Assembly: GCA_017436325.1 (NCBI GenBank)
Contig: JAFSDI010000001.1
Location: 1-52,582 of the forward strand
Reading direction: 5' to 3'
DNA: 52,582 bases
Origin: Alphaproteobacteria bacterium
GTDB taxonomy: Bacteria; Pseudomonadota; Alphaproteobacteria; Rs-D84
Both the position numbers and the translations under genes were made by a program. This document shows positions 6,507-52,582 of this stretch, in pieces. The notes under the pieces were generated by a model. The model did not search any database. It was not told the DNA's origin and saw only the letters and a list, made by a program, of their open reading frames with translations. Numbering within the stretch: the stretch's first letter is position 1; every line of letters begins with the position of its first letter.

Positions 6507-6513
6507 AAAAACA

Positions 6514-6541
6514 AAAAAATTCCCCAATCGGGGAATTTTTT
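6514..6541. terminator. Terminator of rpsT (symmetrical)
   Basis: A perfect stem with ATTCCCC and GGGGAAT arms around an AATC loop, flanked by A-runs and T-runs on the two sides. It ends rpsT transcription and could also act on the minus strand for the secreted gene at 6618-6944. Confidence 0.9.
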
Positions 6542-6617
6542 CTTTCCATATAGAATTTTATATTTATTGTTTCCACAATTCATATTACATCAAAATAAAC
6601 AACATAAAAATTATTCA

Positions 6618-6944
6618 TTATGCCTCTGGTCTTGTTAGAGATTCATTCTCATAATTCTCTACGCCTTCCCAACGATATGTCACATTACCTCCCTCTAACT
6701 CAACAACCAGAATAAACTTCCCGTCTACATTCACTTGTTCACGCGGGTCTGGAATTGCAGATTCTGCTAACTCCACTGCTCTGTCTGCTGTTTCCTTTAC
6801 CGCCGCCAATGCATCAGCCAAATTTGTAAACCCATCTGGCACTACACCAATTTTTTCATCAAAGAATCCACGCGAAATAATCGATGCACCTGCTGTACCA
6901 GCTGCTATAAATCCCAATACTGTTGTAAAAAGTAACTTTTTCAT
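6618..6944 (-). CDS. Small secreted protein of the SRGFF family
   Basis: 108 residues. The ATG at 6944 is chosen over an upstream GTG (6953) because the GTG is part of the ribosome site AAAGGGTG. A signal peptide (MKKLLFTTVLGFIAAGTAGA) precedes the mature start SIISRGFFDEKIG. A short heptad-like helix (NLADALAAVKETADRAVELA) leads to the C-terminal beta module (DGKFILVVELEGGNVTYRWEGVE). The same three parts occur in the proteins at 37297-38049 and 51867-52582, which have a larger variable middle, so this is a short family member. It lies 30 bases downstream of the terminator of a structured leader RNA. Function unknown; surface exposure or export is inferred from the signal peptide. Confidence 0.8.
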   Translation of the reverse strand: MKKLLFTTVLGFIAAGTAGASIISRGFFDEKIGVVPDGFTNLADALAAVKETADRAVELAESAIPDPREQVNVDGKFILVVELEGGNVTYRWEGVENYENESLTRPEA

Positions 6945-6973: not shown

Positions 6974-7005
6974 AAACAAAAACCGCCACAGGAATTCTTA
7001 GCGGT
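6974..7005 (-). terminator. Terminator ending leader RNA copy 1
   Basis: Minus-strand stem ACCGC/GCGGT (7001-7005, 6982-6986) followed by TTTTTGTTTT. It lies only 30 bases before the start codon of the secreted gene, so transcripts must pass it to express that gene. Confidence 0.8.
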
Positions 7006-7212
7006 CGGGGAGTTAGCAAATCACGTCATTACTGATTCTGTCGCTTTTAGTGATAAATCACCTGTTGTATAACGACCAGCCCCCCGACCTATCTCAGTCA
7101 GGGCACAATAGAATACGATGCAAATACGAAAAAGTCGGATTACGACGCACAACATATTTGCACCGAATGACGAAGGCCTGCTACAGCCCCGAAACCAATT
7201 CCCATCGGTTTC
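6974..7212 (-). ncRNA. Structured leader RNA, class 1 copy 1
   Basis: Homologous to 38071-38336. Read on the minus strand from a likely start near 7212 it forms: P1 (7207-7212 with 7191-7196, GAAACC/GGUUUC, loop with GGGAAUU), a conserved 16-base element (7175-7190), a 12-bp P3 (7154-7165 with 7116-7127) enclosing a conserved GUCGUAAUCCGAC hairpin (7134-7146), P4 (7096-7103 with 7082-7089), P5 (7073-7079 with 7038-7043, holding a GUGAU/AUCAC hairpin), and a terminator (stem 7001-7005 with 6982-6986 and U-run to 6974). The segment 7003-7012 (CUCCCCGACC) can pair instead with the P4 3' arm and overlaps the terminator stem. No ORF here has a ribosome site. Confidence 0.75.
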
Positions 7213-7219
7213 AAAACAT

Positions 7220-7248
7220 ATTATACAAATATCACCTATTCTTTGCAA
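7220..7248 (-). promoter_or_regulatory. Promoter of leader RNA copy 1
   Basis: TTGCAA (7243-7248) and a consensus TATAAT (7220-7225) are 17 bases apart on the minus strand. The spacing to the first paired base of P1 is the same as in copy 2, which supports both promoter and RNA start. Confidence 0.8.
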
Positions 7249-7264
7249 ACATAAAAAACACAAC

Positions 7265-37270: not shown

Positions 37271-37298
37271 AATCCCCCTTTCGGGGGATTGATTTTTT
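37271..37298 (+). terminator. Terminator of the trxA-dksA unit
   Basis: Stem AATCCCCC/GGGGGATT (37271-37278 with 37283-37290), loop TTTC, then GATTTTTTA. Confidence 0.9.
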
Positions 37299-38049
37299 AT
37301 TCCATTTCAGCACGATCGATTGATTCCCATGCATACGTCGTTTGATCTCCTTCTTTAACCGCGGTTAATACGTACTTTCCATTACTGGCGGTGGCAGACA
37401 GATTATTTATCTTGCCGTCAATCTTGGCATCAACAGCGCGCAATGCATCCGCTAAATTGTCATAGCCCGCGATTTTGTTTTCCGAATCTATTGTCCCGAT
37501 TTTAGCGGCATTCTCGTCAACTTTGGTTGTTAAAGTTGGCAAACCATATGCTTTTCTGCCGTTCATGTCGTTAGTGCCATAAAACAATAAATCATAAAAA
37601 CTGAACCGCGATCCACAATTATTGAAAAGCAATTCGTAATCATTAAATATATCGGTAAGTCTGACAGGCCAGTGTAAATCTTCTCTTGAAGGGGATAACA
37701 AGCGACTGACAATTCCATAAAATCCAGGAAAGTCATAATCCGTATAATTTAATTCTATAAATTCTGATATAGACTTTGGCATTCTGCTATTAACATTATT
37801 CTTATAATACTCCTCACTAAAAAGCAAAGTTATATCATCACCTAAAGCATCCCTATACGTCAATTCTGCCGGTGTTCCCACAATTTCTAACAATGTGGTT
37901 AGGTCGCTTTGGTTTGCTTTTAAATCAAGGGCAGTGTTTGTGGCATAATTCTCCATCGCTTCTTCAAAAAATCCACGTGATACAATCGATGCGGTTGCAG
38001 CGCCCGTGAAGGTTATACCAAGAATAGTACTAACTAAAAATTTTTTCAT
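37297..38049 (-). CDS. Secreted SRGFF-family protein
   Basis: 250 residues. Signal peptide MKKFLVSTILGITFTGAATA, mature start SIVSRGFFEEAMENYAT, a variable middle of about 150 residues with an inserted region rich in Tyr and Leu, a heptad-like helix (NLADALRAVDAKIDGKI) and the C-terminal beta module NGKYVLTAVKEGDQTTYAWES. Paralogue of 51867-52582: both ends match closely in protein sequence, but synonymous sites differ freely in the shared C-terminus, so protein-level selection, not recent conversion, keeps the ends alike. AGGAG eight bases before the ATG. Behind the second class 1 leader RNA. Role unknown. Confidence 0.8.
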   Translation of the reverse strand: MKKFLVSTILGITFTGAATASIVSRGFFEEAMENYATNTALDLKANQSDLTTLLEIVGTPAELTYRDALGDDITLLFSEEYYKNNVNSRMPKSISEFIELNYTDYDFPGFYGIVSRLLSPSREDLHWPVRLTDIFNDYELLFNNCGSRFSFYDLLFYGTNDMNGRKAYGLPTLTTKVDENAAKIGTIDSENKIAGYDNLADALRAVDAKIDGKINNLSATASNGKYVLTAVKEGDQTTYAWESIDRAEME

Positions 38050-38070: not shown

Positions 38071-38102
38071 ATTAAAACACCGCAAAGAGAATTCTATGCG
38101 GT
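38071..38102 (-). terminator. Terminator ending leader RNA copy 2
   Basis: Minus strand ACCGCA/TGCGGT stem followed by GTTTTAATTT. The 5' arm overlaps the CCCCGACC segment that can pair with the P4 3' arm instead. Confidence 0.75.
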
Positions 38103-38336
38103 CGGGGAGTTAGCAAATCATAACATCAATGACTCTGCCCGTTTTTAGTGCAAAACACCTGTTATATACCGGACAGCCCCCCGACTTTTTTCTTAGTCAG
38201 GGACAAATCAAGATAACGATGCAAATATGGAAAAACACTTGTCGGATTACGACACACTTAATATATGCCTTTGATATATTTGCATCGGATGTTATAGGCC
38301 TGCTACAGCCCCGAATCCAATTCCCACTGGACTCAC
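38071..38336 (-). ncRNA. Structured leader RNA, class 1 copy 2
   Basis: Homologue of 6974-7212. On the minus strand: P1 GAGUCCA/UGGAUUC (38328-38334 with 38313-38319), the identical 16-base element (38297-38312), P3 12 bp (38276-38287 with 38217-38228) around the GUCGUAAUCCGAC hairpin (38241-38253), P4 (38195-38202 with 38179-38186), P5 CUGUCCG/CGGGCAG (38170-38176 with 38135-38141), then a GAUUUGCUAACUCCCCGACC segment conserved in both copies and the terminator (38097-38102 with 38079-38084, U-rich run to 38071). Stem sequences differ from copy 1 while pairing is kept. The gene start is 22 bases beyond the terminator. Confidence 0.78.
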
Positions 38337-51657: not shown

Positions 51658-51837
51658 AACGATTTAACTAATCGTTGGGTCTAACTAACCCACAAAACAT
51701 CGATGTCAGTCAAGACATAAAAAACAATCCAACCAAACTATGGTTGGGGTGCGTGATATATATAAATAAGCGCGACAATCTTCGATGTATTGTTAGTTAG
51801 CTCCAACCTTCTTTATTAAAAGCAAGAAGGTTTCTTT
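51658..51837 (+). ncRNA. Structured leader RNA of the third SRGFF-family gene
   Basis: No sequence match with the class 1 leaders, but heavily paired: AACGATT/AATCGTT (51658-51664 with 51670-51676), a long-range CTAACTAAC/GTTAGTTAG (51681-51689 with 51792-51800), ACATCGA/TCGATGT inside it (51697-51703 with 51782-51788), a TGTC/GACA hairpin (51704-51717), and CCAACC/GGTTGG (51729-51734 with 51742-51747). Then CCAACC recurs (51803-51808), overlapping the 5' arm of a terminator-like hairpin AACCTTCTT/AAGAAGGTT (51805-51813 with 51824-51832, followed by TCTTTA). The gene starts 30 bases later behind AAGGAG. Confidence 0.65.
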
Positions 51838-51866: not shown

Positions 51867-52582
51867 ATGAAGAAACTTTTAACCGCCGGCATATTTGGCA
51901 CACTATTAACCATCACAGGCGGCGCAGATGCATCAATTGTATCACGCGGATTTTTTGAAGAACAAATTGGAAATTATGCAACTCTTGATTTGCTAAATTC
52001 CAAGGCAAATCAAAGCGACCTAACCAACCTATCAAACATAGTCGGCACCCCGACCGAGATGACGTATATGAACCTTTCTTTCGATAGAGACATGTATGAA
52101 CTTTTTGGAGAAACTTATTGGCAACAATATGGAGATACAGCCGTCCCAACAAATGATATTTCTGAATTTATTCGATTAAGTTATACAGACACGACTTTTC
52201 CAGGAATAGCTGGTATACTGGTACGACTGTTTGCAACTCAGCAACGAGATGATGAAAATTGGCCAATCAGATTATTTACTATATTTGATGATTATTCAGA
52301 CCTTTATAGAAATAGTGGTGGGACATATTTTTATGAATATATTACTGATGGAGGAAATTCTTCTAGTGGGATAGTTTATGGTTTAAGAAAATTAACTAAT
52401 GAAGTTAAAAAAATCGGTACATTACCGGCGGGCTATGATAGTGTTGGGGCGGCCTTAGAGGCAATTAATGCCAAGGTTGATAATAAAATCACCAATCTAT
52501 CTGCCACCGCCAGCAATGGTAAATATGTCTTAACCGCGGTCAAAGAAGGCGACCAAACAACATACGCATGGGAATCAATTGA
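51867..52582 (+). CDS. Secreted SRGFF-family protein (3' end outside window)
   Basis: 238 complete codons to the window edge. Signal peptide MKKLLTAGIFGTLLTITG with GADA before SIVSRGFFEEQIGNYATL. The variable middle is unlike that of 37297-38049 apart from short anchors (VGTP, ISEFI, FPG, WPIRL, DDY), and the C-terminal module NGKYVLTAVKEGDQTTYAWES is identical at the protein level. GGAG is six bases before the ATG. Preceded by its own structured leader with terminator. Same unknown role as the paralogues. Confidence 0.8.
   Translation, partial: MKKLLTAGIFGTLLTITGGADASIVSRGFFEEQIGNYATLDLLNSKANQSDLTNLSNIVGTPTEMTYMNLSFDRDMYELFGETYWQQYGDTAVPTNDISEFIRLSYTDTTFPGIAGILVRLFATQQRDDENWPIRLFTIFDDYSDLYRNSGGTYFYEYITDGGNSSSGIVYGLRKLTNEVKKIGTLPAGYDSVGAALEAINAKVDNKITNLSATASNGKYVLTAVKEGDQTTYAWESI

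Follow-up and report, generated by a model that had tools for sequence, protein, structure and literature searches.

Architecture of the leaders in the window

The window, i.e. the whole 52,582-nt stretch of contig JAFSDI010000001.1 that was analysed, contains three copies of one leader, each followed by a gene (Table 1). The ribosome-binding site (RBS) of the 108-aa gene behind copy 1 lies at about 6956-6951, and the 111-aa version of this ORF uses a GTG further upstream as its start codon. The 5′ end of the copy 1 RNA would lie at P1. Helix P5 of copy 1 closes a domain resembling the Rfam family sRNA-Xcc1, which comprises P6, P7, P8, and UAUACAACAG. Matches to Phe_leader at 6510-6571 were regarded as spurious; this segment lies between two convergent genes and forms an ordinary, bidirectional terminator hairpin.

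Table 1. Leader copies, their predicted elements, and the genes behind them.
Feature	Position (strand)	Details
Leader copy 1	7212-6975 (-)	
Predicted promoter, copy 1	7220..7249 (-)	TTTGCA 7249-7244, 18 nt, TATAAT 7225-7220
P1 hairpin	7191..7212 (-)	GAAACCGAUGGGAAUUGGUUUC; conserved in alignment
5′ target strand	7166..7190 (-)	GGGG 7190-7187, UAGCAGG 7183-7177, CGUCAUU 7172-7166
P3 stem-loop	7116..7165 (-)	CGGUGCAAAUA.../GUAUUUGCAUCG
P4 hairpin	7082..7103 (-)	CCCUGACU 7103-7096 / GGUCGGGG 7089-7082 (shared strand)
Rival helix P5	7003..7089 (-)	GGUCGGGG 7089-7082 / CCCCGACC 7010-7003; covariation in relatives
3′ antisense strand	7007..7030 (-)	AAUGACG 7030-7024, UUUGCUA 7020-7014, CCCC 7010-7007
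Predicted intrinsic terminator	6975..7005 (-)	ACCGC 7005-7001 / GCGGU 6986-6982; U tract UUUUUGUU 6982-6975
Gene behind copy 1	6618..6944 (-)	108 aa; ATG 6944; signal-peptide-like start MKKLLFTTVLGFIAAGTAGASIISRGFFDE
Leader copy 2	38072..38334 (-)	P4 38202-38196/38185-38179; P5 38185-38179/38107-38101; terminator 38102-38097/38084-38079
Gene behind copy 2	37297..38049 (-)	250 aa; N- and C-terminal motifs of the family
Leader copy 3	51661..51837 (+)	Strongly diverged letters, same helix relations
Target, copy 3	51674-51703 (+)	
Antisense, copy 3	51782-51799 (+)	
P4, copy 3	51729..51747 (+)	CCAACC 51729-51734 / GGUUGG 51742-51747
P5, copy 3	51742..51808 (+)	GGUUGGGG 51742-51749 / CUCCAACC 51801-51808
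Terminator, copy 3	51805..51832 (+)	AACCUUCUU 51805-51813 / AAGAAGGUU 51824-51832
Gene behind copy 3	51867..52582 (+)	Runs past the window end; same secreted-protein family

The initial annotation had read copy 1 as a transcription attenuator in which a segment overlapping the terminator competes for the 3′ arm of P4. This layout was reproduced throughout: the segment 7012-7003 is CUCCCCGACC, its CCCCGACC forms a perfect 8-bp pairing with GGUCGGGG, P5 would take 3 nt of the terminator stem, and the terminator lies 30 nt ahead of the ATG. P4 and the terminator can form together, and formation of P5 would preclude both P4 and pairing at the base of the terminator. As had also been stated, copy 2 keeps every one of these relations. 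The annotation had named these two copies; a third is present in the window, with a 4-nt overlap between P5 and the terminator, and 51 are present in the genome. A perfect 8-bp pair occurred at least once in 23% of dinucleotide shuffles of copy 1 (mean 0.37); the match alone is, therefore, weak evidence, and the weight comes from the comparison of copies. The z scores of the minimum free energy (MFE) were -6.3, -6.3, and -5.6 for copies 1, 2, and 3, respectively.

Copies in the genome and the genes behind them

A blastn-type search located 54 matches in the genome to which the window belongs (42 contigs, 1.04 Mb), and the 51 leader copies were obtained with R1, a covariance model made from the 3′ domains of 36 copies. 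A TATAAT-like -10 box was found in all 30 regular copies and a TTTACA/TTGACA-like -35 box in 29 of them, with predicted spacers of 16-19 nt and a median of 7 nt from the -10 box to P1. The distance from the terminator to the gene start had a median of 26 nt in this genome (n = 42) and 22 nt in relatives (n = 66). The order of predicted promoter, leader, and intrinsic terminator directly before a gene is that of an intrinsic-terminator attenuator.

The leaders sit before genes for mostly secreted or surface proteins. In this genome, most of the downstream genes, including the three in the window, form one family that starts with MKK..., contains ASI(I/V)SRGFFDE, and carries a C-terminal GKYVLT...GD..TY.WE, with variable middles. 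Searches of Pfam and NCBIfam gave no name for the downstream family, except for a pair of PLD-like nucleases. According to a crude hydrophobicity rule, 37 of 42 downstream genes have signal-like N-termini vs 15 of 43 other genes of the window. Downstream genes in relatives encode outer-membrane barrels, autotransporters, surface antigens, PAP2 proteins, a sulfatase, glycosyltransferases, and two DNA methylases.

Several further observations were made on these genes. Paralogs of the secreted-protein family often lie close to the end of an assembled contig. Two secreted PLD-like/NucT-type nucleases are preceded by compact leader variants that scored 43-53 bits (L058:4905-5438 and L059:2132-2659, both on the plus strand). 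At L110, L115, and L197 of relatives, this leader type directly precedes DNA methyltransferase genes (C-5 cytosine type and EcoRI type), which may point to a connection with mobile or defence genes. One of the proteins encoded downstream in relatives (set A6) gave a match to the second Mtd domain; Mtd is the variable tropism protein of a diversity-generating retroelement.

P4, P5, and the terminator are maintained by compensatory changes

Within the genome, P4 is paired in 96% of the alignment cells, and two-sided changes were seen in P6, P7, and the sixth terminator pair. P4 is kept at P ≤ 0.05 in 37 of 41 copies of this genome and in 51 of 65 other copies, with weak P4 in a few (L133, L147, and L057+). 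P5 is nearly invariant within the genome, and its covariation comes from relatives. We used for this an alignment of 70 copies from relatives (A3), which was fitted to a model containing P5 and so leans towards that model; 95.8% of its cells were paired (33-48% in slid controls), with two-sided changes in 24 of 27 pairs overall and in five of the seven P5 pairs.

The strand shared by P4 and P5 takes nine forms in relatives (e.g. GUCGGGG, GUUGGGG, GUUGGGU, GACUGGG, GCCGGGG, and GUCGGGA), and its upstream and downstream partners both track these changes, as illustrated by the P4/shared/P5 triplets of L119 (GCCCGGC / GUCGGGC / GCCCGAC) and L158 (CUCCAAC / GUUGGAG / CUCCAAC). Permutation z values in relatives were -8.4 for P4, -8.3 for P5, and -11.5 for the terminator. 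In 64 of 68 sequences from relatives, 1-4 nt (median 3 nt) belong to both the 3′ arm of P5 and the terminator stem; because the overlap is this short, P5 may weaken rather than abolish the terminator. The alternative pairing is exclusive with the terminator, and both P5 and the terminator covary, which is again the form of an intrinsic-terminator attenuator.

Dispersed copies, several of them close to contig ends, would also be left by a mobile or recombinational DNA repeat, such as a MITE or a cassette site, that has no role as RNA. This explanation is extremely improbable, as every helix shows compensatory changes, and these concern the RNA strand of a transcription unit that has a predicted promoter. 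By sequence comparison, the leaders have two mutually exclusive sets of predicted helices, one of target-antisense, P4, and terminator and the other of P5 and P8, and both sets carry compensatory changes.

Target and antisense strands match within each copy

The MFE folds contained a further helix, missed by the initial annotation, between the 5′ target and a strand of the 3′ domain; in copy 1, the target strand pairs with 7030-7007. The target directly follows P1 and has the form GGGG-CUG-U-NNN-A-GGCC-N8, and the antisense in the 3′ domain has the form N8-UGAUUU-NNN-AAC-U-CCCC. N8 and NNN vary between copies and match within each copy. The NNN triples were complementary in all 37 copies compared, which have 37 distinct codes. 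The own target-antisense duplexes had an energy of -25.9 kcal/mol vs -15.6 ± 0.5 kcal/mol for permuted pairs (20,000 permutations, best -17.9). The duplex of copy 3 reached -27.0 kcal/mol (shuffled mean -10.2, best of 1,000 shuffles -22.2). Most relatives in the order and class have the same matched pair. Since the target-antisense pairing also uses CCCC, the 5′ GGGG and the shared GUCGGGG compete for CCCCGAC.

The antisense strand was also compared with the RBS of the gene behind it. Duplex energies in this genome were -13.8 for own pairs vs -13.6 for cross pairs; the target lies upstream and not, as in C4 RNAs, downstream; an antisense match to the downstream RBS was seen in only a few relatives. 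These results bear on a reading in which the leaders are stand-alone trans-acting sRNAs of the C4/sRNA-Xcc1 type, with the genes behind them served by other promoters or by leaky termination. Each copy has its own predicted promoter and a strong predicted terminator, sRNA-Xcc1 has been seen on Northern blots as an RNA of ~88 nt (PMC2996969), and multicopy C4-like sRNAs are known in Acinetobacter (PMC5320573). However, the leaders always lie on the same strand as and directly ahead of a gene, the 20-30 nt between terminator and start leave hardly any room for a second promoter, and each antisense strand fits its own 5′ strand with a private code. We, therefore, consider stand-alone sRNAs unlikely.

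Predicted energetics and a model of attenuation

The energies in this section are nearest-neighbour predictions and not measurements. For the full leader, the fold with target-antisense, P4, and terminator is predicted to be the more stable one in 36 of 37 copies, by a mean of 13.8 kcal/mol, and the 3′ domain alone is predicted to be nearly balanced between the two folds. When the 5′ target was left out and the terminator had yet to be made, P5 was predicted to be favoured in 28 of 37 copies (mean -2.9 kcal/mol). In the model folds, the target-antisense helix would decide between the two states, and a gap of about 14 kcal/mol towards OFF would mean that turning the gene on needs an input.

Each leader is probably a cis-acting antisense attenuator; the structure is strongly supported, and we infer the direction and the signal. 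Transcription would start at the predicted position at P1 and produce, in this order, the target strand (GGGG, the 3-nt code, and the code of about 8 nt), P3, P4, the module with the sRNA-Xcc1 fold, and the terminator. A loop and the 3′ segment of the module are complementary to the target strand made earlier. In the putative default OFF state, target and antisense would be paired, CCCC would be held by the 5′ GGGG, P4 would hold the shared strand, and the terminator would form. In the putative ON state, the target would be occupied, or its pairing delayed, so that P5 closes at the moment of decision; with P5 closed, P4 would melt, the base of the terminator would lose 2-4 nt to P5, and RNA polymerase would read on. 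Candidates for occupying the target are a protein that contacts P1 or the conserved UAUACAACAG/AAC nucleotides, an RNA acting in trans, and the speed of elongation.

The target strand could also be freed or blocked by a ribosome translating a short ORF in the 5′ domain. An AUG or GUG is present in the P1 loop of most copies, whereas the frame and length are not kept (11 to 82 codons, with scattered stops), an RBS is lacking, and several copies have no start codon. The search for a conserved short ORF with an RBS in the leader gave none; attenuation by a leader peptide was rejected as very improbable.

Returning to antisense attenuation, the codes could serve as a system of private addresses. 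RNAs with a matching code, i.e. terminated leaders or incoming RNAs of phages or mobile elements, would turn on single genes in trans via the target strand, and about 50 genes for secreted proteins would stand behind domesticated phage-type antisense modules with their own codes. We offer this extension as a speculation that is doubtful at present.

Distribution and relation to sRNA-Xcc1

The leader was found in 49 of 59 searched genomes, including its own, and in 27 of 385 sampled genomes of the class, with hundreds of copies in other gut Alphaproteobacteria; the named carriers are metagenome-assembled genomes from the gut, among them Candidatus Enterousia. In uncultured gut Alphaproteobacteria (Candidatus Enterousia and relatives), the leaders form a class of cis-regulatory RNA that can reach 51 copies in a genome of 1 Mb.

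The only Rfam family matched by the leaders was sRNA-Xcc1 (RF02221), below its gathering threshold of 53 bits in the own genome. Copy 1 scored 30.5 bits over 7089-6995 (model positions 1-87 of 87), and sub-threshold matches over the full model length were obtained for six of the 10 copies tested, with up to 40.1 bits for copies of this genome. The same-genus locus L152 scored 57.8 bits, which is above the threshold. The 3′ domain and sRNA-Xcc1 have in common a 9-bp closing stem (P5), a hairpin with an AUACAA internal loop and an inner hairpin (P6/P7), a second hairpin (P8), and an unpaired segment ahead of the closing 3′ arm. The closing stem and the two inner hairpins with the AUACAA element were all present in the leaders, and P5 to P8 covary. 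Unlike sRNA-Xcc1, the leaders add a 5′ domain (P1, target, P3, and P4) and a terminator, and their antisense target lies upstream and not downstream.

RF02221 was found in 58 of 398 sampled genomes of Pseudomonadota, in 39 of them above the threshold. A 19-base piece of its core occurs in at least 120 viral contigs; a search of viral contigs for the exact core of the alphaproteobacterial type gave no match. In beta- and gammaproteobacteria and prophages, sRNA-Xcc1 lies just ahead of anti-repressor and SymE genes; this position was noticed for the RF02221 loci L162-L191 and the viral contigs L270-L349. At 25 RF02221 loci, all but one outside the genus, the next same-strand gene often encoded a phage anti-repressor or a related regulator (Rha 4, Bro-N 3, P22_AR_N 1, KilA-N 1) or SymE (2). 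A position directly upstream of symE has been noted in Xanthomonas integrons (PMC12444791). The P8 loop and the segment before the closing arm of RF02221 RNAs are complementary to the RBS region of the next gene, e.g. CUUGUGUC with GACACAAG right after AGGAG. Own matches between loop and RBS exceeded cross-locus matches at the beta- and gammaproteobacterial loci (Wilcoxon P = 6.6e-6). A duplex-level test of RBS pairing was weak for 65 copies from viral contigs, with -24.9 for own vs -20.7 for cross duplexes and only nine of 65 in the best 5%, because much of the match is conserved between copies. These observations suggest that sRNA-Xcc1 has a cis-acting, C4-like role rather than that of the trans-acting sRNA described in the literature.

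Comparison with riboswitches and C4 RNAs

The initial annotation had proposed a ligand- or factor-controlled on/off switch. The layout of a switch was borne out, and many copies and species show it to be under strong selection; for control by a ligand or factor, our searches found no ligand-type evidence. A riboswitch-like leader would bind a metabolite or protein through the conserved unpaired UAUACAACAG, AAA, and AAC of the P5 domain and UGGGAA of P1, and thereby stabilise P5. These unpaired positions rank among the most conserved, and the presence of a single element ahead of many genes of related function resembles a regulon. However, the conserved loops may be structural, and the same core stands before phage anti-repressors, SymE, methylases, porins, and surface antigens, which have no common metabolic theme; binding of this kind is, therefore, rather improbable. 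No Rfam riboswitch model matched the leaders. Like transcription-attenuating riboswitches and T-boxes, the leaders have a promoter, a terminator, and exclusive alternative helices. They differ in having a switching helix formed by copy-specific antisense pairing, in lacking a known ligand domain, and in reaching 51 copies in 1 Mb.

The antisense attenuator that we favour has closer counterparts among phage RNAs. In phage C4 antisense RNA, which is cut out by RNase P (PMC5320573), the a′ and b′ loops face the RBS of ant (PMC5320573, PMC12197685). Like C4 of phages P1 and P7 (RF01695, in a clan with c4-2), the leaders place a module with two short variable antisense segments (a′ and b′ in C4) ahead of the controlled gene. 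In C4, the target is the RBS of the downstream ant, whereas the leaders carry the target in their own 5′ part and use a predicted intrinsic terminator as the read-out. The leaders were not classified as C4 because the Rfam C4 models (RF01695 and RF02944) gave no match on any leader tested, even at permissive thresholds. Group 1 C4-like sRNAs of Acinetobacter baumannii likewise have many chromosomal copies and a variable a′ loop (PMC5320573); unlike these, for which trans action was proposed, each leader carries its own matching target and gene.

The leaders probably share this module with phage RNAs of the C4/sRNA-Xcc1 type or acquired it from them; in those RNAs, both of the segments are directed at the RBS of the gene that follows. 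Taken together, the comparison suggests a wide class of phage-linked antisense leaders that act in cis and that include sRNA-Xcc1, a family regarded as a trans-acting virulence sRNA; it also suggests that modules of this kind were converted into transcription attenuators.
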